In this document: positions 4,343-13,353 of the stretch, piece by piece
Layout: the number at the start of each line of letters is the position of its first letter
How positions within the stretch are numbered: position 1 is the first letter of the stretch
NCBI GenBank assembly: GCA_024398665.1
Contig: JAKSIS010000015.1
Coordinates: 1-44,636, forward strand
From: Bacteroidaceae bacterium
GTDB lineage: Bacteria; Bacteroidota; Bacteroidia; Bacteroidales; Bacteroidaceae
Length of the DNA: 44,636 bases
Reading direction: 5' to 3'
Position numbers and translations under genes: made by a program
Notes under the pieces: generated by a model
The model's database searches: none
What the model saw: only the letters and a program-made list of their open reading frames with translations
What the model was told of the DNA's origin: nothing

Positions 4343-4756
4343 ATGGCTTGTGAGATTCGACATAGCGGAACTGTCAGCGCTGTCAACGGCAATGTGGTCA
4401 CTGTGACCTTTTTACAGCAGTCGGCATGTGCAGGCTGTCAGGCCGCAAAACTGTGCCGCATATCGGAATCAAAGGAAAAAAGCGTACAGGTCCGGACATC
4501 GGACCCGCAAAGTTATCAGGCGGGCCAGCCTGTCATCGTGGCCGGAACAACAGGCCAGAGCTGGAGAGCCGTCATCCTTTCTTTCGGCGTTCCACTTGTT
4601 CTGCTCATGACCGTTCTGGTCATTGTCATTGCCGTTACGCACAATGAAGGTCTTGCCGCCGGGCTGTCGCTTGTGGCGCTTGTTCTTTATTATATGATAC
4701 TGTTCGTGTGCCGTGACAGGATCAGGAGAAAATTCGAATTCAAATTAATACAATAA
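4343..4756 (+). CDS. rseC: RseC/MucC-family membrane protein (SoxR-reducing system)
   Basis: 137-residue protein of the RseC family, which accompanies Rnf/Rsx operons and is linked in Escherichia coli to keeping SoxR reduced. The N-terminal ~75 residues form a small beta domain with the cysteine cluster SACAGCQAAKLC (four-Cys pattern, perhaps metal- or Fe-S-binding). Two membrane helices follow (about residues 77-97 and 102-122) and then a basic tail. The frame extends further upstream, but the ATG at 4343 gives the family N-terminus (MACEIRHSG) and sits right behind a -7 box. rnfB starts 12 nt after its stop. The family call is firm; the role in a Bacteroidota cell is inferred from the constant association with rnf. 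Confidence 0.88.
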   Translation: MACEIRHSGTVSAVNGNVVTVTFLQQSACAGCQAAKLCRISESKEKSVQVRTSDPQSYQAGQPVIVAGTTGQSWRAVILSFGVPLVLLMTVLVIVIAVTHNEGLAAGLSLVALVLYYMILFVCRDRIRRKFEFKLIQ

Positions 4757-4768
4757 AAGAAAGCGTTT

Positions 4769-5677
4769 ATGTCGCCAATTTTGACAGCAGTTCTTGTTTT
4801 GGGCATTACGGGACTTGTTCTGGGTATAGTCCTGTTTGTCGTCGCAAGGAAATTTGCAGTGGAAGAGGATCCCAGAATCGGGCAGATAACCGGACTGCTG
4901 CCCGGAGCCAACTGCGGAGGCTGCGGCTTCCCGGGCTGTGCCGCCTTTGCCGAGGCATGTGTGAAGCGTGACTCGATGGACGGAATGAAGTGTTCGGTAT
5001 GCAAGAGTGAGGTGATGCAGCAGATTGCAGCCATAACCGGTCATGAAGTTGAGGCCGGCGCTGCAAAGGTTGCTGTGGTGAGGTGCGACGGCTCATGTGA
5101 GAACCGTCCGCGCGTGAATTTCTATGACGGGGCGTCAAGCTGTGCTGTGGCCGCCATGCAGACCGGAGGTGAAACAGGCTGTTTCTACGGCTGTCTGGGC
5201 TGCGGCGACTGCGTGGGCGCCTGCAAGTTCGGTGCCATTGAAATGGATCCCGAAACCGGGCTGCCGGTGGTGGACCAGGAAAAATGTACCGCATGCGGAG
5301 CCTGTGCAAAGGCGTGTCCGCGCGGAATCATCGAACTGCGCAACCGCAACAAACTGGACCGCCGCATCTATGTATGCTGCGTGAACAGAGACAAGGGGCC
5401 TGTAGCCAAAAAGGCATGCGCTGTGGCATGCATAGGCTGCGGAAAGTGCGTCAAGGCCTGTCAGTTTGAAGCCATAACGCTTGAGAACAACCTGGCTTAT
5501 ATAGACTTTGAAAAGTGCCGCCTGTGCCGCAAGTGCGTTGACGAATGTCCGCAGCACACCATTCACGCCGTGAATTTCCCGCCGCGCAAGCCCGCTGCTG
5601 TGGCTCCGGAGACTGAACAGTCAGCCGTGGCCCCTAAGGCTGAAGCCGCTCCGAATCCCGTTGAACAAAACAGCTGA
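4769..5677 (+). CDS. rnfB: Rnf complex subunit B (ferredoxin-interacting Fe-S protein)
   Basis: 302 residues. RnfB accepts electrons from reduced ferredoxin on the cytoplasmic side of the Rnf complex. A membrane helix at 4-26 is followed by the Fe-S motif with Cys49, Cys52, Cys57 and Cys75 (ANCGGCGFPGC). Two double-[4Fe-4S] ferredoxin modules follow, with CxxCxxCxxxC motifs such as CLGCGDCVGAC, CTACGACAKAC, CIGCGKCVKAC and CRLCRKCVDEC. This gives about five clusters, the longer RnfB form seen in anaerobes, not the short E. coli type. The C-terminal ~30 residues are an Ala/Pro/Glu-rich tail. rnfC begins 5 nt after the stop. Confidence 0.97.
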   Translation: MSPILTAVLVLGITGLVLGIVLFVVARKFAVEEDPRIGQITGLLPGANCGGCGFPGCAAFAEACVKRDSMDGMKCSVCKSEVMQQIAAITGHEVEAGAAKVAVVRCDGSCENRPRVNFYDGASSCAVAAMQTGGETGCFYGCLGCGDCVGACKFGAIEMDPETGLPVVDQEKCTACGACAKACPRGIIELRNRNKLDRRIYVCCVNRDKGPVAKKACAVACIGCGKCVKACQFEAITLENNLAYIDFEKCRLCRKCVDECPQHTIHAVNFPPRKPAAVAPETEQSAVAPKAEAAPNPVEQNS

Positions 5678-5682
5678 CAGAT

Positions 5683-7023
5683 ATGGCCAATACATTCAGA
5701 ATGGGTGGAGTTCACCCGGAACCAAACAAACTGACGGCCGGAATGAAAATTGAACCGGCCGCACTTCCCAAACAGGCTGTCTTTCCACTGTCGCAGCATA
5801 TCGGTGCACCTGCAGTACCATGTGTCCAGAAAGGTGACAGAGTGCTTGTAGGTACAAAAATTGCTGAACCCGGCGGCTTCATGTCGGCCTTCATACATTC
5901 TTCCGTATCGGGGAAGGTCGCTAAGATTGACACTATAGTCGATGCCAGCGGACAGCGCAAGCCCGCCATTTTCATTGATGTCGAAGGTGATGAATGGGAA
6001 CCTTCCATAGACCGTTCGGACAAGGTGGCGCTCCAGTGCGACATGGCCGCATCGGACATAATCGACAAGATAAGGAATGCCGGCGTGGTGGGAATGGGCG
6101 GTGCCTGCTTCCCGACTCACGTCAAACTGTGCCCGCCTAAGGACTGCAAGATTGACACGCTGATAATCAATGCGGTGGAATGTGAACCATATCTCACTGC
6201 TGACCACAGGCTGATGCTTGAATATTCTGACCAGATCATAGTCGGAATAAGAATCATACTGCGTGCTCTGGGCATTGACCGTGCGGTGATAGGAATAGAG
6301 GAGAACAAGCCCGATGCCATTGAACTTATGAAGATGAAGACTGCAATGGTCAGCGGGATTGAAGTCATGCCTTTGAAGATGCGCTATCCGCAGGGCGGTG
6401 AAAAGCAGCTCATTGAAGCTGTCACCGGCCGTCAGGTCCCGCCTCCTCCCGCACTGCCTGCCAACGTGGGCTGCGTGGTGCAGAATGTGGGAACCGTATT
6501 CGCCATTTATGAGGCTGTGCAGAAGAACAAGCCTCTCTTTGAAAGGATTGTGACTGTAACCGGCAAGAGCGTGAGCAACCCCTGCAACCTGAAGGTCCGC
6601 ATGGGTACGCCTGTCAGCCAGCTGATAGAACAGGCCGGCGGCATGCCGCAGGATACCGGCAAACTGATTTCCGGAGGTCCCATGATGGGACGTCCGCTGC
6701 TGGGTACTGAGGCTCCCGTGGTCAAGGGTACGTCAGGCATACTGATGCTGCCGGAAAAGGATGCTGTCCGCCGTGAGGAGCGCAACTGCATACGCTGTGC
6801 AAAGTGCGTGCAGGCATGTCCCATGGGGCTGGAACCCTATCTGCTTGGCACTGCCAGCGAGAACGCTGACTGGGAGACAGCCGAGGAAAACTGGATTACC
6901 AGCTGCATTGAATGCGGCTGCTGCCAGTCTACATGCCCTTCGCGCAGACCGCTGCTCGATTGGGTCCGTCTGGGTAAGAACAAGGTGAACGGAATAATCC
7001 GTGCCCGTAACGCAAAGAAGTGA
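5683..7023 (+). CDS. rnfC: Rnf complex subunit C
   Basis: 446-residue cytoplasmic subunit that carries the NADH/FMN site and two [4Fe-4S] clusters, at the NAD(H) end of the Rnf ferredoxin:NAD+ oxidoreductase. The N-terminal barrel-sandwich hybrid domain is recognisable (GGVHP, LPLSQHIG-like and VSGKVAKI segments). The flavin/NADH domain includes GVVGMGGACFPTHVK and NAVECEPYLTADHR. Two ferredoxin motifs lie near the C-terminus: CIRCAKCVQACP and CIECGCCQSTCP. The usual GGAGFPTH is GGACFPTH here, a small oddity. The protein lacks the long repetitive tail of E. coli RsxC. rnfD follows after 3 nt. Confidence 0.97.
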   Translation: MANTFRMGGVHPEPNKLTAGMKIEPAALPKQAVFPLSQHIGAPAVPCVQKGDRVLVGTKIAEPGGFMSAFIHSSVSGKVAKIDTIVDASGQRKPAIFIDVEGDEWEPSIDRSDKVALQCDMAASDIIDKIRNAGVVGMGGACFPTHVKLCPPKDCKIDTLIINAVECEPYLTADHRLMLEYSDQIIVGIRIILRALGIDRAVIGIEENKPDAIELMKMKTAMVSGIEVMPLKMRYPQGGEKQLIEAVTGRQVPPPPALPANVGCVVQNVGTVFAIYEAVQKNKPLFERIVTVTGKSVSNPCNLKVRMGTPVSQLIEQAGGMPQDTGKLISGGPMMGRPLLGTEAPVVKGTSGILMLPEKDAVRREERNCIRCAKCVQACPMGLEPYLLGTASENADWETAEENWITSCIECGCCQSTCPSRRPLLDWVRLGKNKVNGIIRARNAKK

Positions 7024-7026
7024 CAT

Positions 7027-7989
7027 ATGGCTGAAAAACTGTACATATCGACCTCACCGCATGTGCATTGCGGTGACACCATTGAAAAGAACATGCACTG
7101 GGTCATCACGGCTCTCATGCCGGCAATGGTCGCATCGTTCATCATATTCGGTCTGGGAGCATTCATCGTGACTGCCACATCGGTGGCTTCATGCCTGCTG
7201 TCCGAATGGCTTATCAACAGGTATCTGCTCCATCGTGACCGCTCTACACTGGGCGACGGCAGCGCAGTCATCACCGGACTGCTGCTGGCTTTCAACCTGC
7301 CCTCTAACCTGCCTGTGTTCGCAGTTGTCATGGGCGCTCTGGTTGCCATAGGAATAGGAAAGATGGCTTTCGGCGGACTTGGAAACAATCCTTTCAACCC
7401 CGCTCTTGTGGGCCGCGTGTTCCTGCTCATCTCATTCCCTTCCAGAATGACTTCGTGGCCGGTGCCGCACCAGATGACAGCCTACAGCGATGCCGTGACC
7501 GGTGCAACCCCGCTCAGCCAGTTCGGATATGCCAATGACAGCATACCCGGTTACTGGGACCTGTTCATCGGCAATACCGGCGGCAGCCTTGGAGAGGTCT
7601 GTGCGCTGGCTCTGCTCATAGGTTTTGCAATACTGCTGTGGCGCAAGGTGATCACATGGCACATTCCTGTCACCATCATGCTGACAGTGGCTGCCCTGAC
7701 AGGAATCATGTGGCTGGTGAACCCCGTCACATACGTTGACCCGCTTACACACCTGCTTTCCGGCGGTCTCATGCTGGGTTCAATCTTCATGGCAACGGAC
7801 TATGTGACATCACCAATGACTGTGAAAGGACAGGTATGGTACGGTGTGGGAATTGGATTCCTGACCGTCGTGATAAGACTCTTCGGATCATATCCTGAAG
7901 GCATGTCATTCGCAATTCTCATCATGAACGCCATTGTTCCGCTTATCAACAACTGGTGCAAACCAAAACATTTCGGGGAGGCTGCATAA
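7027..7989 (+). CDS. rnfD: Rnf complex subunit D, flavinylated membrane subunit
   Basis: 320-residue integral membrane subunit with about eight to ten helices; RnfD holds a covalently bound FMN and takes part in ion translocation. The flavinylation motif TGATPLS is present, placing the modified Thr at residue 161 by analogy with RnfD/NqrB. FGGLGNNPFNPALVGR is also a family signature. The stop codon overlaps the rnfG start by one base (TAATG), showing translational coupling. Covalent attachment needs an ApbE flavin transferase, which is not encoded in this window. Confidence 0.97.
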   Translation: MAEKLYISTSPHVHCGDTIEKNMHWVITALMPAMVASFIIFGLGAFIVTATSVASCLLSEWLINRYLLHRDRSTLGDGSAVITGLLLAFNLPSNLPVFAVVMGALVAIGIGKMAFGGLGNNPFNPALVGRVFLLISFPSRMTSWPVPHQMTAYSDAVTGATPLSQFGYANDSIPGYWDLFIGNTGGSLGEVCALALLIGFAILLWRKVITWHIPVTIMLTVAALTGIMWLVNPVTYVDPLTHLLSGGLMLGSIFMATDYVTSPMTVKGQVWYGVGIGFLTVVIRLFGSYPEGMSFAILIMNAIVPLINNWCKPKHFGEAA

Positions 7990-8660
7990 TGAAGAAACTT
8001 GAATCGAACTTAAAGAACATGGCAGTCGTGCTCACCGTCATTTCGGTTGTGGCAGCCGGACTGCTGGCTTGGGTCAACGGCGTGACAAAGACGGCCATTG
8101 ACAGGATAAACGAACAGACCGTGGCTGACGGAATAAAGAGCGTGACCATAGGTGACAGTGATGTGGAATTCACTGTCGCAGCACCTCAGGAGAAGAACGG
8201 ATTCATTTTCCACAAGGTGTCCGATGCCGCCGGAAACACCATAGGCACGGCTGTCGAATCAACTGACCACAACGGATTCGGCGGTGATCTGAAGGTGATG
8301 GTAGGTTTCGGACCTGAAGGTGAAATCCTGGGCTACAAGGTTCTGCAGCACAGTGAGACTCCGGGTCTCGGTGCTCAGGCCGATGACTGGTTCCGCCAGG
8401 CTTCAACTGATCAGGCCGCCCAGTCGGGATTTGCCAGCTTCCTGCTTGGCGCACCTGCAAAGGCCGGAAACCACAACATCATTGGAATGAATCCCGGCGA
8501 TGACATGCTGACTGTCAGCAAGGACGGCGGAGAAGTTGACGCCATCACAGCATCGACAATAACGTCAAAGGCTTTCCTGCGTGCTGTCAATGCGGCATAC
8601 AAGGAACTATTCGGGTACACTGCCGCCGACGGCGTGAGCGGTGCCTCATCACAGAACTAA
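7989..8660 (+). CDS. rnfG: Rnf complex subunit G, flavinylated periplasmic subunit
   Basis: 223 residues: one N-terminal membrane helix (about 9-29) and an FMN_bind domain outside the inner membrane. The covalent-FMN motif reads DAITASTITS, with the predicted flavinylated Thr at residue 190; the form TAST in place of SGAT is a variant of the motif. RnfG receives electrons on the outer side of the membrane, making it the natural donor for the flavin lipoprotein encoded at the end of this operon. The frame is open from 7956, but the ATG at 7989, overlapping the rnfD stop, gives the family start MKKLESNLKN. Confidence 0.96.
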   Translation: MKKLESNLKNMAVVLTVISVVAAGLLAWVNGVTKTAIDRINEQTVADGIKSVTIGDSDVEFTVAAPQEKNGFIFHKVSDAAGNTIGTAVESTDHNGFGGDLKVMVGFGPEGEILGYKVLQHSETPGLGAQADDWFRQASTDQAAQSGFASFLLGAPAKAGNHNIIGMNPGDDMLTVSKDGGEVDAITASTITSKAFLRAVNAAYKELFGYTAADGVSGASSQN

Positions 8661-8673
8661 ACACTGATTACCG

Positions 8674-9267
8674 ATGAACTGCTTCAAGACATTAGTAAAC
8701 GGAATAGTGAAGGAGAACCCGACATTCGTTCTTCTTCTGGGCATGTGCCCCACGCTGGCCACAACATCATCGGCCCTGAACGGCATGGGTATGGGTGTGG
8801 CTACAATGTTCGTGCTCATCTGCTCGAACGTTTTCATTTCACTGCTCAAGAACGTCATTCCCGACGGCGTGAGAATACCCTGCTACATTGTGGTCATAGC
8901 ATCATTCGTGACCATACTTCAGATGCTCATGCAGGCCTATGTGCCAAGCCTTTACCAGACATTGGGCATATTCATACCGCTCATTGTGGTGAACTGCATA
9001 ATTCTGGGACGTGCCGAGGCCTTTGCCGCCAAGAACAACGTGCTGCAGTCACTCTGTGACGGTATAGGAATAGGACTGGGATTCACCATAGCCCTGACGC
9101 TTTTAGGCATGGTGCGCGAACTGCTTGGCAAGGGCGCATTCTTCGGACATCAGGTTCTGCCCGAATCAATGAACATGCTGGTGTTCGTGCTGGCTCCGGG
9201 CGCATTCATCACCCTGGGCCTGCTCATAGCTCTCGTAAACTCAATCAAGAACAGAAAAGCTGAATAA
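8674..9267 (+). CDS. rnfE: Rnf complex subunit E
   Basis: 197-residue, six-helix membrane subunit of the Rnf/Nqr E-D family. The signature LLGMCPTLATTSSALNG is near the N-terminus (about 24-40) and VNCIILGRAEAFA is in the middle. RnfE and RnfA are inverted homologues that together hold a membrane Fe-S centre and form the electron and ion path. It starts 13 nt after rnfG, and rnfA follows 2 nt after its stop. Confidence 0.97.
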   Translation: MNCFKTLVNGIVKENPTFVLLLGMCPTLATTSSALNGMGMGVATMFVLICSNVFISLLKNVIPDGVRIPCYIVVIASFVTILQMLMQAYVPSLYQTLGIFIPLIVVNCIILGRAEAFAAKNNVLQSLCDGIGIGLGFTIALTLLGMVRELLGKGAFFGHQVLPESMNMLVFVLAPGAFITLGLLIALVNSIKNRKAE

Positions 9268-9269
9268 TC

Positions 9270-9890
9270 ATGGCATACTTCCTTATTTTCATTTCGGCTA
9301 TCTTCGTAAACAACATTGTCCTGTCACAGTTCCTGGGCATCTGTCCGTTCCTTGGCGTGTCCAAGAAAGTGTCAACTGCCGCAGGAATGGGCATAGCCGT
9401 GACATTCGTGCTGACCGTAGCCGTGATTGTCACATACGCGCTTCAGCACTGGGTACTCGATCCTCTGGGACTGGGCTATCTACAGACCATCCTGTTCATT
9501 CTGGTGATTGCCGGTCTGGTGCAGATGCTTGAGACAATCCTGAAGAAGGTGTCTCCGTCGCTCTATCAGGCTCTCGGCATATTCCTGCCGCTTATCACCA
9601 CCAACTGCTGCATTCTGGGCGTATCGATCCTGGTGGCAAACGGCACCTATAACGCACAGGGTCTGGAACCGACACTGCTGGTAGGCGTCCTGTACGCCTT
9701 CTCGACCGCTATAGGATTCGCTCTGGCACTGATAATATTCGCCGGCATACGCCAGCAGCTTGCCACTGTCCGCATCCCCAAGGGCATGCAGGGCATGGCG
9801 ATAGCACTCATAACAGCCGGTCTGCTTGCCATGGCCTTCATGGGATTCAGCGGCGTGGATCACGGAATAGCAACATTGGCAGGTATCTGA
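9270..9890 (+). CDS. rnfA: Rnf complex subunit A
   Basis: 206 residues, six predicted membrane helices. The family signatures are visible: FVNNIVLSQFLGICPFLGVSK at the N-terminus and LPLITTNCCILG in the middle; the conserved cysteines in these half-helices coordinate the membrane Fe-S cluster with RnfE. It closes the BCDGEA gene order typical of Bacteroidota and clostridial Rnf operons. The next gene, a flavin lipoprotein reductase, starts only one base after the stop, so the operon clearly continues. Confidence 0.97.
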   Translation: MAYFLIFISAIFVNNIVLSQFLGICPFLGVSKKVSTAAGMGIAVTFVLTVAVIVTYALQHWVLDPLGLGYLQTILFILVIAGLVQMLETILKKVSPSLYQALGIFLPLITTNCCILGVSILVANGTYNAQGLEPTLLVGVLYAFSTAIGFALALIIFAGIRQQLATVRIPKGMQGMAIALITAGLLAMAFMGFSGVDHGIATLAGI

Positions 9891-9891
9891 T

Positions 9892-12426
9892 ATGAAAAAA
9901 ACATCATTTTGTTTTCCTGTGCTGGCACTCCTGCTGGCAGCATGTTCCGGCGGCGTGTCAGAAGACGGCCTGAAGAACGGCAAGTACAGTGCGACCGGAC
10001 TGAATTTCAACGGTACGGCCGATGTGAGCGTTTCTGTAAAGAAGGGGCGCATAGCTTCAATTGATGTCAGGGATGACGGCCATACTTATGCCCAGTACCA
10101 GTCTCCTTTAAAGATTGTACCCGAAAGGATAATTGAAGCCCAGAACACCGGGGTCGATGGAGTCACTGGCGCCACATTCACGGCCGATGCGGTGAAGATG
10201 GCCGTTGACGATGCTCTCGCACAGGCCCGTGGCGAAAGACCTGTTGAAAGGAAGAATGCCGCGCTGTCATTCACGCCCGGTACCTATACCGGTACAGGCA
10301 AGGGTTACGGCGGCAGCCTGCAGGCCAGAGTCACATTTACTGAAAACGCGGTCAGTGACATACAGGTCACCTCACAGCGTGAGACGGCACATGTCGGCGA
10401 TGTGTCATTCCCTATAATGACAAAGCGCATATTGGCCGCAAACGGTCTGGCTGTCGATGCCGTGTCAGGCGCCACTTTCTCAAGCCATGCACTCAAGGCC
10501 GCTGTCCTTGACGCCGCAGTCCAGGCCGGCGTAAGTTCCAGACAGGCTTTCATACGAAACAATGTTGCGCCCGAGGAAGTGTTTGAGACAATTGAGGATA
10601 CGTGGGACGTTGTAATCATAGGCGGTGGCGGTGCCGGACTGTGCGCTGCAGCACAGGCCGCCCAGGACGGCAATACCGTTCTCATCATTGAGAAGAATGC
10701 AGAATTGGGAGGCAACACCCTGATTTCAGGCGGCACATACCAGGCTACGGACCACAGTCTGGTATGGGAGATGGACCGTCCTGAGGCAACCACAGCCATC
10801 GGCTTTGACGGCAGACAGCACAACAAGGTGCGTTCCACTGTGGGCTGCGTGAATGATCTGAAGACAATTCTGGGGTGGAACGAAGAACCGTTTGACGAGC
10901 AGTACTACAAAACCCATGAGTTCGTTGCCGGTGACATTAAGGAACAGTCAAAGCACGGCGTGCATCAGGAATTCCTGCCTACACTCCGACAGCTCAAGAA
11001 GGAGATATCGGCCTATCTGGCTTATGCTGAACCGAAACTGGCCAATGGCACTCCTGAAAACCAGCTCATCCAGTTCTCAACCACAAGTCTGCACATTTTC
11101 CAGACATATTACGGCGGTCTCCGCCAGAGTGTGGACCGCAATGAATGGATACACGGTGACTTTGAACTTATCAGACAGTTTGTAGAAGAGGGCGAACTGC
11201 TCAAACCGTGGCTCATGGAGATGGGCGTAGGTTTCACTGACGCGCAGTCAACGCTTATCGGAGCACTCTGGTACCGCGGCAATTCGATGACCGGATGCAC
11301 GGCCGATGCTGACGGCGACGGACGTGCAGAACGTTACCAGGGCAACTGGGGGTCATATTTCATGGCTCCTCTCGCAGTGGTTACGGGAGCATCGGAAAAG
11401 AACCGTGTCATGCGCTCCACCACAGCTGGTGAACTGATTGTTGAAAACGGCCGTGTGACCGGCGTCAAGGCAAAGGTTGAAGACGGGGCCGATGTCATTG
11501 CACACGCCCGCAAGGGTGTCATCATCGCTACCGGAGGCTATGCTGCAAATATCCAGAAGGTGCTCAAGACCAACAGGTACTGGTCACGCCAGTATCTGTC
11601 TCCGACAATAGGTACCACCAACCGTTCATCGCTTCGCGGCGACGGTATTGATATGGCGACGGCAATAGGCGCTGCCACTGTAGGCGAGGGTTGGACACAG
11701 CTCATGCCGCTTGGCAATGTGGCTGACGGTTCAATATCATACGGAGGCGTGGAGAATGCGGTGTTCATCAGTCCTCAGGACGGCAAGCGTTATGTCGACG
11801 AATGTTCTGAACGTGATGTGCTGTCACTTAACGGCTTCAAGCACGGCATTGAATGGAACGGCGCCCGCGGCGTGTTCCTGTATTTCACACCGGGTTTCGG
11901 CGGTTTCGGCGGCGGATTCGGCGGCTTTGGCGGTTTTGGTGGCGGTGCTGCCAAAAATACCCCCAAGTCAGCCAGCTGCAAGGGCAGCGAACTTGAGAAC
12001 CTGTTCCAGGAACTGGGTATTGAGGCCGATGCAGCAGCAATCCGGCAGACAATACGCGAATATGACATGGCTGTCATGGAGGGCCGCCAGCCTGCAGGCG
12101 TAGGCAAGAGCCATGCCACGGGTCTCATAGGCAGTGCCCGCCGCGGTGCTGACGGAAAGTATGATCCGTCAACCTACACCATTGACGACGCCAACCTTTC
12201 CATGCGTATCATGGCTCCTTCAACACATCACACCATGGGCGGCCTGAAGGTCGATCTGGACCGTCATGTGCTTGATGAAAGCGGCAACGCCATTCCGGGA
12301 CTGTACGCAGCCGGTGAGGTTACGGGCGGATTCTTCGGCGGCAACCGTCTGGGCGGCAACGCTCTGACTGAGGTGATGGCATCCGGACGTATTGCAGCAA
12401 GGGCTGTCAACGCTGACAACAGGTAA
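9892..12426 (+). CDS. Lipoprotein flavin reductase: two FMN_bind domains plus fumarate/urocanate-reductase FAD domain
   Basis: 844-residue exported lipoprotein (signal peptide, lipobox LLAAC with Cys18). Two FMN_bind domains follow with covalent-FMN motifs VTGAT (Thr95) and VSGAT (Thr195), then an FAD_binding_2 domain from about residue 239 (nucleotide-binding GGGGAG at 244-249, ELGGNT). Family members reduce enoates such as fumarate, urocanate or acrylates. Compared from memory with flavocytochrome c fumarate reductase, the catalytic Arg (Arg641 in SERD), HHTMGG (779-784) and Arg819 in GGNRLGGN are kept. The His of QxHP that contacts the second carboxylate is Met605 (QLMP), so fumarate is an unlikely substrate. 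Residues 668-685 are a Gly/Phe-only stretch. The gene lies one base behind rnfA, implying that Rnf feeds it electrons via RnfG. No heme motif (CxxCH) is present: flavins replace the cytochrome. The exact substrate is unknown. Confidence 0.9.
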   Translation: MKKTSFCFPVLALLLAACSGGVSEDGLKNGKYSATGLNFNGTADVSVSVKKGRIASIDVRDDGHTYAQYQSPLKIVPERIIEAQNTGVDGVTGATFTADAVKMAVDDALAQARGERPVERKNAALSFTPGTYTGTGKGYGGSLQARVTFTENAVSDIQVTSQRETAHVGDVSFPIMTKRILAANGLAVDAVSGATFSSHALKAAVLDAAVQAGVSSRQAFIRNNVAPEEVFETIEDTWDVVIIGGGGAGLCAAAQAAQDGNTVLIIEKNAELGGNTLISGGTYQATDHSLVWEMDRPEATTAIGFDGRQHNKVRSTVGCVNDLKTILGWNEEPFDEQYYKTHEFVAGDIKEQSKHGVHQEFLPTLRQLKKEISAYLAYAEPKLANGTPENQLIQFSTTSLHIFQTYYGGLRQSVDRNEWIHGDFELIRQFVEEGELLKPWLMEMGVGFTDAQSTLIGALWYRGNSMTGCTADADGDGRAERYQGNWGSYFMAPLAVVTGASEKNRVMRSTTAGELIVENGRVTGVKAKVEDGADVIAHARKGVIIATGGYAANIQKVLKTNRYWSRQYLSPTIGTTNRSSLRGDGIDMATAIGAATVGEGWTQLMPLGNVADGSISYGGVENAVFISPQDGKRYVDECSERDVLSLNGFKHGIEWNGARGVFLYFTPGFGGFGGGFGGFGGFGGGAAKNTPKSASCKGSELENLFQELGIEADAAAIRQTIREYDMAVMEGRQPAGVGKSHATGLIGSARRGADGKYDPSTYTIDDANLSMRIMAPSTHHTMGGLKVDLDRHVLDESGNAIPGLYAAGEVTGGFFGGNRLGGNALTEVMASGRIAARAVNADNR
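11893..11946 (+). repeat. In-gene Gly/Phe-coding short tandem repeat
   Basis: Imperfect 9-12 bp units of the type GGTTTCGGC encode residues 668-685 of the flavin reductase, made only of Gly and Phe. Because units are multiples of three, slippage would change loop length without breaking the frame. Confidence 0.8.
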
Positions 12427-12432
12427 TGCCGT

Positions 12433-13353
12433 ATGATATCATTCCCGAACGCGAAGATCAACATAGGACTGCATGTCGTGGGCAAAAGGCCTGACGGCTA
12501 CCATGACATTGAAACCGTATTCTATCCGGTCAATCTGCAGGATGCGCTTGAGGTGACGCTCATGAAGCCACTTGACAGCGGTGAACTGCGCCGCCGCATA
12601 AGCGCCGGCAAACTGGTACGCCCTGAAGAGACCCCTCTGTTGAGCCGCATGCGCCGCAAGGCCGATGACCTTCCGTGCTGCTCGCTTGAAATGACAGGTC
12701 TGGACATTGAAGGGCCGGCACAGGACAATCTGGTCGTGAAGGCATACCTGATGCTGGCACATGACTTTGATCTGCCCGCCATTGACATACGCCTTCACAA
12801 GCACATCCCCACCGGTGCAGGGATGGGCGGCGGATCATCGGACGGCGCTTCCATGATATCGCTTCTGAACAGGCGTTTCGGCCTTCGCATGAAAGACGGT
12901 CTCATGGAGCAGTATGCCGCCCGGCTGGGTTCGGACTGCGCCTTCTTCATACAGAACACTCCGGTCATTGCAACCGGCAGGGGCGAGATAATGAATCCGG
13001 TGAACCTTAACCTGCACGGCTGGTACATAGTTCTTGTCAAGCCCGATGTCCATATCAGTACCGCCATGGCCTATGCCGGTGTGGTGCCGCAGGAGCCGCC
13101 GCTTCCGCTTCAGGAAGCTGTCCGCCGTCCTGTCACCCAGTGGAGGGACATTATTGTGAATGACTTTGAACAGAGCGTCTTCAAACAGTATCCGGTCCTG
13201 TCCGAAATAAAGGAGAAACTTTATGCCATGGGTGCCGGATATGCATCAATGACCGGTTCCGGGGCTACAGTCTACGGTCTTTTCAAAAAACCGGCTGACA
13301 ACCCGGCCGCCATGTTCCCCGGCATGTTCTGCGCTCAGCGCGAACTTCTCTGA
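12433..13353 (+). CDS. ispE: 4-diphosphocytidyl-2-C-methyl-D-erythritol kinase
   Basis: 306-residue GHMP kinase of the MEP isoprenoid pathway; it phosphorylates CDP-methylerythritol with ATP. N-terminal FPNAKINIGL and RPDGYHDIETVFYP, the ATP-binding glycine loop PTGAGMGGGSSDGAS (126-140) and C-terminal ASMTGSGATVYGLF are diagnostic. About 30 residues (roughly 45-80, basic, with LRRRISAGK and LLSRMRRK) are inserted between the first strands and the DNLVVKAY segment, so the protein is longer than the ~270-285 residues usual for the family. It starts 6 nt after the flavin reductase and ends at a strong terminator, so it appears to be the last gene of the rnf operon; the link is probably positional. 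Confidence 0.96.
   Translation: MISFPNAKINIGLHVVGKRPDGYHDIETVFYPVNLQDALEVTLMKPLDSGELRRRISAGKLVRPEETPLLSRMRRKADDLPCCSLEMTGLDIEGPAQDNLVVKAYLMLAHDFDLPAIDIRLHKHIPTGAGMGGGSSDGASMISLLNRRFGLRMKDGLMEQYAARLGSDCAFFIQNTPVIATGRGEIMNPVNLNLHGWYIVLVKPDVHISTAMAYAGVVPQEPPLPLQEAVRRPVTQWRDIIVNDFEQSVFKQYPVLSEIKEKLYAMGAGYASMTGSGATVYGLFKKPADNPAAMFPGMFCAQRELL

Follow-up and report, generated by a model that had tools for sequence, protein, structure and literature searches.

A flavin-tag motif on RnfG and a two-FMN lipoprotein reductase encoded in one Bacteroidaceae gene run

The stretch of DNA analysed here, referred to as the window, comprises positions 1 to 44,636 (in nucleotides, nt) of contig JAKSIS010000015.1 of the Bacteroidaceae assembly GCA_024398665.1. 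It contains a run of genes on one strand in which rseC-rnfBCDGEA is followed by the gene of an 844-residue lipoprotein flavin reductase and by ispE, see Table 1. The spacings are 12 nt between rseC and rnfB, 5 nt between rnfB and rnfC, 3 nt between rnfC and rnfD, 13 nt between rnfG and rnfE, 2 nt between rnfE and rnfA and 1 nt between rnfA and the reductase gene; rnfD and rnfG overlap by 1 nt (TAATG). Co-transcription of the run is judged from these spacings only. The first-pass annotation had described an unbroken run from rseC into the lipoprotein gene, and its coordinates and gaps of up to 13 nt were right. However, it ended the run at the reductase, while ispE continues it after another 6 nt.

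All six Rnf subunits (RnfA-E and RnfG) are encoded in this one cluster and pass the NCBIfam subfamily or equivalog cut-offs. RnfG lies over the TIGR01947 cut-off (111 versus 102 bits) and under those of the lineage-specific RnfG/RsxG models. As expected for an Rnf complex, RnfD (DAVTGAT) and RnfG (DAITAST) both carry motifs for a covalently bound flavin mononucleotide (FMN), although the RnfG motif departs from the GA[S/T] consensus by AS in place of GA. These two motifs had been recognised before, but a second one in RnfG, DGVSGAS, had been overlooked. It lies in the C-terminal end of the protein, which reads ...FGYTAADGVSGASSQN, and fits the ApbE motif D-x-x-[S/T]-G-A-[S/T]. According to passages of PMC12052999, these seven residues alone are enough for a flavin tag, with the best results at N- or C-termini. 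In Pfam searches of the window, RnfG contains a single FMN_bind stretch and the lipoprotein contains two.

The earlier description of the lipoprotein, two FMN domains fused to a flavin adenine dinucleotide (FAD) domain of the fumarate/urocanate-reductase type, agrees with our Pfam and PDB searches, and both FMN acceptors are kept in 27/27 full-length proteins of the genus. Its lipoprotein character is also borne out: the lipobox pattern follows a possible start in all 27 orthologues, whose starts were picked by a script that favours start codons with such a pattern after them. Among solved structures, it matches best the FAD domain of urocanate reductase and the fumarate reductases of the flavocytochrome c type. 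With FMN_bind domains that carry the ApbE motif, a FAD_binding_2 domain and an export signal, the protein has the composition of a flavinylated fumarate-reductase-like enzyme. No heme domain is found among its Pfam matches, and it reaches 186 bits against the NCBIfam flavocytochrome c model (TIGR01813), whose curated cut-off is 285.

In the urocanate reductase UrdA, Arg560, Arg411 and His520 serve the carboxylate and protonation, according to passages of PMC7921117. The family's catalytic Arg, hinge His and carboxylate-binding Arg are all present in the window's reductase (R641, H779 and R819). The residues that distinguish the known substrates are different. M605, which is Leu in some orthologues, stands at the position of the distal-carboxylate His of Fcc3-type fumarate reductases, whose Glu/Arg proton-path region is gapped or altered in the alignments. 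The same M605 stands at Tyr373 of UrdA, whose Asp388 is opposite a gap in the phmmer alignment and beside one in the profile alignment. Thus, as far as the alignment tells, the catalytic set is present and the features that mark specificity for fumarate or urocanate are absent, and the substrate is probably neither of the two. Because of the hydrophobic swap at M605 and the herbivore-gut setting described below, our guess is an acid with a hydrophobic end, e.g., a hydroxycinnamate. A separate feature is a Gly/Phe-rich loop of variable length (FGGFGGGFGGFGGFGGG) at residues ~667-690 (window 11890-11960), which breaks the FAD domain. It is longer in many orthologues and missing in two relatives from Clostridia-labelled records.

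Table 1. Features of the gene run and of its flavin proteins in window coordinates.
Feature	Position	Strand	Basis or remark
rseC (RseC/MucC family)	4343..4756	+	PF04246, E 6.5e-27; opens the run
rnfB, ferredoxin-accepting Fe-S subunit	4769..5677	+	NF005504 449 bits, Fer4 domains
rnfC, NAD-side subunit	5683..7023	+	TIGR01945 548 bits
rnfD, predicted covalent FMN on T161 (DAVTGAT)	7027..7989	+	TIGR01946 373 bits; motif from translation
rnfG	7989..8660	+	TIGR01947 111 bits, PF04205 69 bits
RnfG main FMN site DAITAST (T190), within the FMN_bind domain	8538-8558	+	translation
RnfG C-terminal flavin-tag motif DGVSGAS, residues 214-220	8628..8648	+	outside the FMN_bind match
rnfE	8674..9267	+	TIGR01948 274 bits
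rnfA	9270..9890	+	TIGR01943 256 bits
844-residue lipoprotein flavin reductase: lipobox, FMN_bind 1, FMN_bind 2, FAD_binding_2 with clamp region	9892..12426	+	Pfam and PDB searches, orthologue alignment
Lipoprotein signal peptide up to lipobox Cys18	9892..9945	+	lipobox LAAC, residues 15-18
Reductase FMN site 1, DGVTGAT (T95)	10156..10176	+	T95 kept 27/27
Reductase FMN site 2, DAVSGAT (T195)	10456..10476	+	T195 kept 27/27
SERDVL, R641, counterpart of the proposed UrdA proton donor Arg411	11806..11823	+	PDB alignment; invariant in 27
HHTMGG, H779, counterpart of UrdA His520	12226..12243	+	PDB alignment; invariant in 27
GNRLGG, R819, counterpart of UrdA Arg560	12340..12357	+	PDB alignment; invariant in 27
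ispE, unrelated to electron transfer	12433..13353	+	named from GHMP kinase domains and context; adjoins the reductase gene

The genus was sampled with 37 genomes, the window's included, with a completeness of 62-100%, so absences are weak evidence. A full-length reductase is encoded in 27 of them, 26 at 63-73% identity to the window's protein. Two more have only a piece of the gene at a contig end (G169, where it lies behind rnfA, and G177), G050 and G088 have only a 40-42% one-FMN relative located elsewhere, and in the remaining 6/37 no match was found at E 1e-40. The relatives in G050 (G050:C6, L091) and G088 (G088:C7, L018 and L329), both congeners without an rnf-linked reductase, are fumarate-reductase-like proteins of ~595 residues with one FMN motif.

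The first-pass annotation had proposed a comparison of gene order behind rnfA. In 27/27 genomes with the full-length gene, it lies behind rnfA on the same strand at a distance of 1-184 nt (with script-chosen starts), and no relocated full-length copy was seen among the 37. An order kept in this way is not due to chance. In 24 of the 26 loci where ispE is seen, it follows on the same strand within 97 nt. The seven reductase-less genomes with rnfA have ispE behind it on the same strand (2), ispE on the opposite strand (3) or an inverted dnaB and then ispE (2), and in G157 no rnfA was found. Quite possibly, rnfA-ispE was the ancestral order.

A tree of RnfG, RnfE and RnfA from 35 genomes places all 28 carriers (the 27 and G169) together with one non-carrier, G154, in a single clade with a FastTree support of 0.95. 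This suggests a probable single gain of the reductase, between rnfA and ispE, and a single loss, in G154. The distances between the reductases agree with those between the Rnf proteins (Mantel r 0.82, 0/999 permutations as high, n = 27), which points to a mainly vertical descent of the reductase that is largely congruent with that of Rnf.

The RnfG tag is present in 28/28 carriers, in one of them in a degenerate form (G070: DAVSSAS). Its D, V, S, last A and S are invariant, G is kept in 27/28, and the acceptor is Ser (S220 in the window). The codons vary synonymously, with two in use for D and three each for V, G and A. This free synonymous change shows that the tag is conserved at the protein level and is not a by-product of the rnfE start site. 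Among the seven non-carriers, the strict motif occurs in G160 and, in two copies, in G088. Using a relaxed form, [DNE]-x-x-[ST]-[GSA]-[AS]-[ST], matches are also found in G156 (DGTTSAT) and G050 (DATTSAT), and no tag was found in G154, G158 and G162. The only non-carrier within the carrier clade, G154, is without the tag too.

Beyond the genus, 180 RnfG loci were scripted and 165 counted: 68 from the family, 81 from the order and 16 from the order that were chosen mostly for length. Ten loci were dropped as they did not match the core pattern (G388, G410, G027, G337, G214, G350, G327, G247, G261 and G059), as were two repeat genomes, G365 and G216 with a second FMN domain and G290, which is open at a contig end. 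The family has 115 genomes with an RnfG match, nine of them in the window's genus; 70 of the other 106 were sampled and 68 were readable. Among these 68 RnfGs, the tail carries a strict motif in 39 and a relaxed one in 59. Three strict copies each are found in G013, G014 and G081, and the Ser/Thr-rich tails of G389 (L212) and the contig-end G290 (L208), from two other genera of the order, have five. The idea that the tag belongs to the reductase was thus abandoned on account of tags in other genera, leaving the weaker observation on G154. Some tails in the family are Cys-rich, with runs such as CDKANCKK and CGEDCDCNEPC (L186, L188, L304, L305, L307 and L308), and might bind metal.

Natural flavin tags on RnfG in Bacteroidales thus appear to be an unexpected feature that is wider than the reductase. 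We found no description of a natural C-terminal RnfG tag in the open-access literature, to which the search was confined, with subscription papers and supplements outside it. Passages of two surveys (PMC8238504; PMC11334425) count multi-flavinylated proteins by their FMN-binding domains, so a bare tag would be missed. In the main text of a 2025 study of Rnf in Bacteroides (PMC12718326), words that start with flavin, FMN or ApbE do not occur, and the passages of two flavinylation papers that name RnfG (PMC4767422, PMC10339131) mention no such tag.

We suggest that the locus encodes an Rnf pump together with a genetically linked branch that leads electrons outward, a reading to which we assign a probability of roughly 0.55. 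According to passages of PMC12174285, RnfG is reduced by the RnfA/E cluster at the periplasmic side of the membrane and ordinarily passes its electrons to RnfD. In our proposal, electrons would come from ferredoxin via RnfB and the [2Fe-2S] cluster of RnfA/E, or from NADH (reduced nicotinamide adenine dinucleotide) with Rnf reversed, and would reach the FMN of RnfG at the periplasmic side. The normal route would lead on through RnfD and RnfC to NAD+. In the branch, a flexible second FMN on the C-terminal tag of RnfG would instead hand the electrons to the lipid-anchored reductase, first to its two FMN domains and then to its FAD, where a periplasmic unsaturated carboxylate would be reduced. 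Energy would still be conserved along the branch under one of the published models, in which pumping is tied to RnfA/E (PMC12174285, in part). We count in favour of this reading the synteny, FMN acceptors and lipobox in 27/27, the tag in the carriers, its joint absence with the reductase in G154, the Mantel agreement and the presence of ApbE, which is encoded in 35/37 genomes of the genus including the window's. The alignment of R641, H779 and R819 with UrdA residues and the periplasmic position at which RnfG is reduced count towards it as well. In the 84% complete assembly there are four FMN_bind matches, all in RnfG, NqrC and the lipoprotein, which makes RnfG and NqrC the evident flavin partners of the reductase.

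Several observations weigh against it. ispE, which is unrelated to Rnf, is part of the same run, and the adjacency may be an operon accident. The gap between rnfA and the reductase gene is at most 40 nt in 18/27 genomes and 57-184 nt in the other 9. Together with a possibly ancestral rnfA-ispE order, this makes the earlier term "hard-wired" too strong. The joint absence in G154 is a single event, and that genome is 82% complete. As the tag occurs without the reductase in non-carriers and in many RnfGs of other family genera, it did not arise for this reductase. Finally, NqrC could be a donor to the reductase.

Relatives of the reductase outside rnf loci belong on the same side. Among 150 other genomes of the family, five from two other genera encode relatives with one FMN motif at 53-55% identity, and two congeners have an additional copy of this kind (53% identity); tblastn found no rnf gene in the 14-18 kb around these seven. 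Nine of the 11 matches in named records are from Bacteroidaceae, Prevotellaceae or Bacteroidales metagenome-assembled genomes (MAGs), and three bear herbivore names (reindeer, water buffalo omasum and horse faeces). The other two (L041 and L043, labelled Clostridiales and Clostridia) are two-FMN relatives at 51-52% identity. The 12.6 and 13.9 kb around them gave no rnf gene by tblastn, which covers next to no downstream sequence for L041 and just 1.3 kb upstream for L043. They may be mis-binned MAG contigs. These two loci led us to reject the notion of a two-FMN form peculiar to Rnf operons. With such relatives away from rnf, the enzyme is not Rnf-specific, nor is its two-FMN form, and the adjacency is therefore suggestive, not proof. 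For the same reason the earlier statement that this is "not a free-standing reductase" is not supported as it stands. No relative was found at E 1e-100 in 392 other genomes of the order, with two candidates scored per genome, and none in viral contigs.

The tag may also serve Rnf itself, as a flexible FMN that hands electrons between RnfA/E, RnfG and RnfD or buffers them, with no special role for the reductase. We place this a little short of even odds. It would agree with tags being common in family genera in which the family search listed no such reductase. However, in other families of the order only 5/81 RnfGs have a strict and 7/81 a relaxed motif, and only 14/81 have a tail of at least 14 residues; these RnfGs were drawn from the better-scoring part of a ranked list, and the percentages are not population estimates. 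The length-picked RnfGs of the order have the strict motif in 7/16. Outside the order, the tag was found in 0/16 (14 by pattern, 2 by eye). The rarity elsewhere in the order and the absence outside it indicate that Rnf as such does not need the tag, and up to five copies would fit a wire or a reservoir better than a fixed relay.

Alternatively, the reductase could draw on the general respiratory pool, i.e., NQR with NqrC, or menaquinol, and its gene would then merely have a convenient place between rnfA and ispE in an operon that is well expressed. The window's genome encodes NqrB, C, D and E above curated cut-offs, so the donor could be Rnf or NQR. It also encodes a frdCAB-type set that includes a cytochrome b558 subunit, and the term "heme-free", proposed earlier for this respiration, fits the Rnf-reductase branch only. 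An isoprenoid gene in the same run and relatives with no rnf gene in the flanking stretches examined would also agree with a general pool, and flavinylated fumarate and urocanate reductases are thought to be fed by chain components encoded elsewhere, according to passages of PMC8238504. On the other hand, the gene is directly behind rnfA in 27/27 genomes with no relocated full-length copy, its descent is largely congruent with Rnf, and the tag is absent in the reductase-less member of the clade. Overall, we regard a general-pool donor as rather unlikely.

As separate observations on flavin proteins in the genus, residues ~14-49 of the window genome's NqrC (G000:C67, L001:1474-2304, minus strand, GTG start) match rubrerythrin/rubredoxin-type domains below cut-offs. 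Two congeners encode small FMN_bind proteins with the motif DVVSGAT and a lipobox-like Cys near the start (G156:C69, L328, 130 residues; G133:C16, L330, 126 residues), and eight further congeners have similar small FMN_bind frames of 126-152 residues.

It is improbable that the tag is just a sequence motif that stays unflavinylated in the cell. The acceptor in the carriers is Ser, and ApbE prefers Thr, according to passages of PMC12052999. The same passages describe the terminal seven-residue motif as sufficient, however, and ApbE is present. The 65 family tails of at least 14 residues carry 39 strict motifs, against a mean of 0.07 strict and 1.14 relaxed in 2000 shuffles. Furthermore, no strict motif occurs in 125,060 residues of other proteins from the window and 28 long loci (frames of at least 200 residues; RnfG, RnfD and reductases excluded). 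That the lipoprotein is an oxidase or dehydrogenase that feeds electrons into Rnf is very unlikely: its FAD domain also matches ketosteroid and succinate dehydrogenases, but its closest solved relatives are urocanate and fumarate reductases and the carriers come from animal-gut samples where the record titles say so.

In the surroundings of the run, a GH10 xylanase gene lies ~2 kb upstream (1261-2439 region), and a PTS_EIIC_2 membrane protein (PF13303; 2469-3500, minus strand) is encoded between it and ribosomal protein S16. Judged by eye, similar-looking starts are present upstream of rnf in some congeners, cf. the PTS_EIIC_2 region of the window.

More generally, and tentatively, with the odds somewhat against it, RnfG with one to five tags in Bacteroidaceae and scattered Bacteroidales could be a flexible, sometimes multi-flavin arm. 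This would turn Rnf from a closed ferredoxin:NAD+ loop into a pump with a periplasmic electron outlet, and in the window's clade the outlet would be paired with a dedicated two-FMN lipoprotein reductase from the same run of genes. In Bacteroides, passages of PMC12718326 (2025) describe Rnf as important for redox balance and critical for in vivo fitness, its precise metabolic role having been undefined before. A second FMN on RnfG, if true, would bear on whether Rnf also delivers electrons outside the membrane. The reductase-bearing genus lends itself to a test of this among bacteria of the herbivore gut, where electron sinks of this kind could be in competition with the formation of hydrogen and methane.

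The closest known enzymes are UrdA of S. oneidensis and FrdA of L. monocytogenes (PF04205 and PF00890). They share with the window's reductase the fusion of FMN domain and FAD_binding_2, the export signal and the catalytic Arg/His/Arg. In contrast to them, the window's protein has two FMN domains, a lipobox and a longer region between the halves of the FAD domain, does not keep the fumarate or urocanate specificity residues, and is encoded within an rnf run. That RnfG could pass electrons outward to other acceptors by a second path has already been proposed for the clusters with multi-flavinylated RnfG of Méheust et al. 2021 (PMC8238504, in part). There, RnfG has more than one FMN-binding domain; here it has one domain and a bare C-terminal tag, and the extra FMN domains are on a separate reductase. 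What differs from the outward path proposed there is the combination of tag and reductase in the same gene run. Passages of Huang et al. 2024 (PMC11334425) describe FMN_red proteins that likewise have a natural unstructured C-terminal extension with one or two ApbE motifs. That extension was seen flavinylated on UV gels. The FMN_red tag is located near a non-covalent flavin site and is found mostly in Firmicutes, whereas the RnfG tag belongs to an Rnf subunit of Bacteroidales and is present in one to five copies. Lastly, the engineered flavin-tag (Tong et al. 2021, as described in passages of PMC12052999) has the same D-x-x-[S/T]-G-A-[S/T] motif at the C-terminus, there as a label and here on a natural redox subunit.

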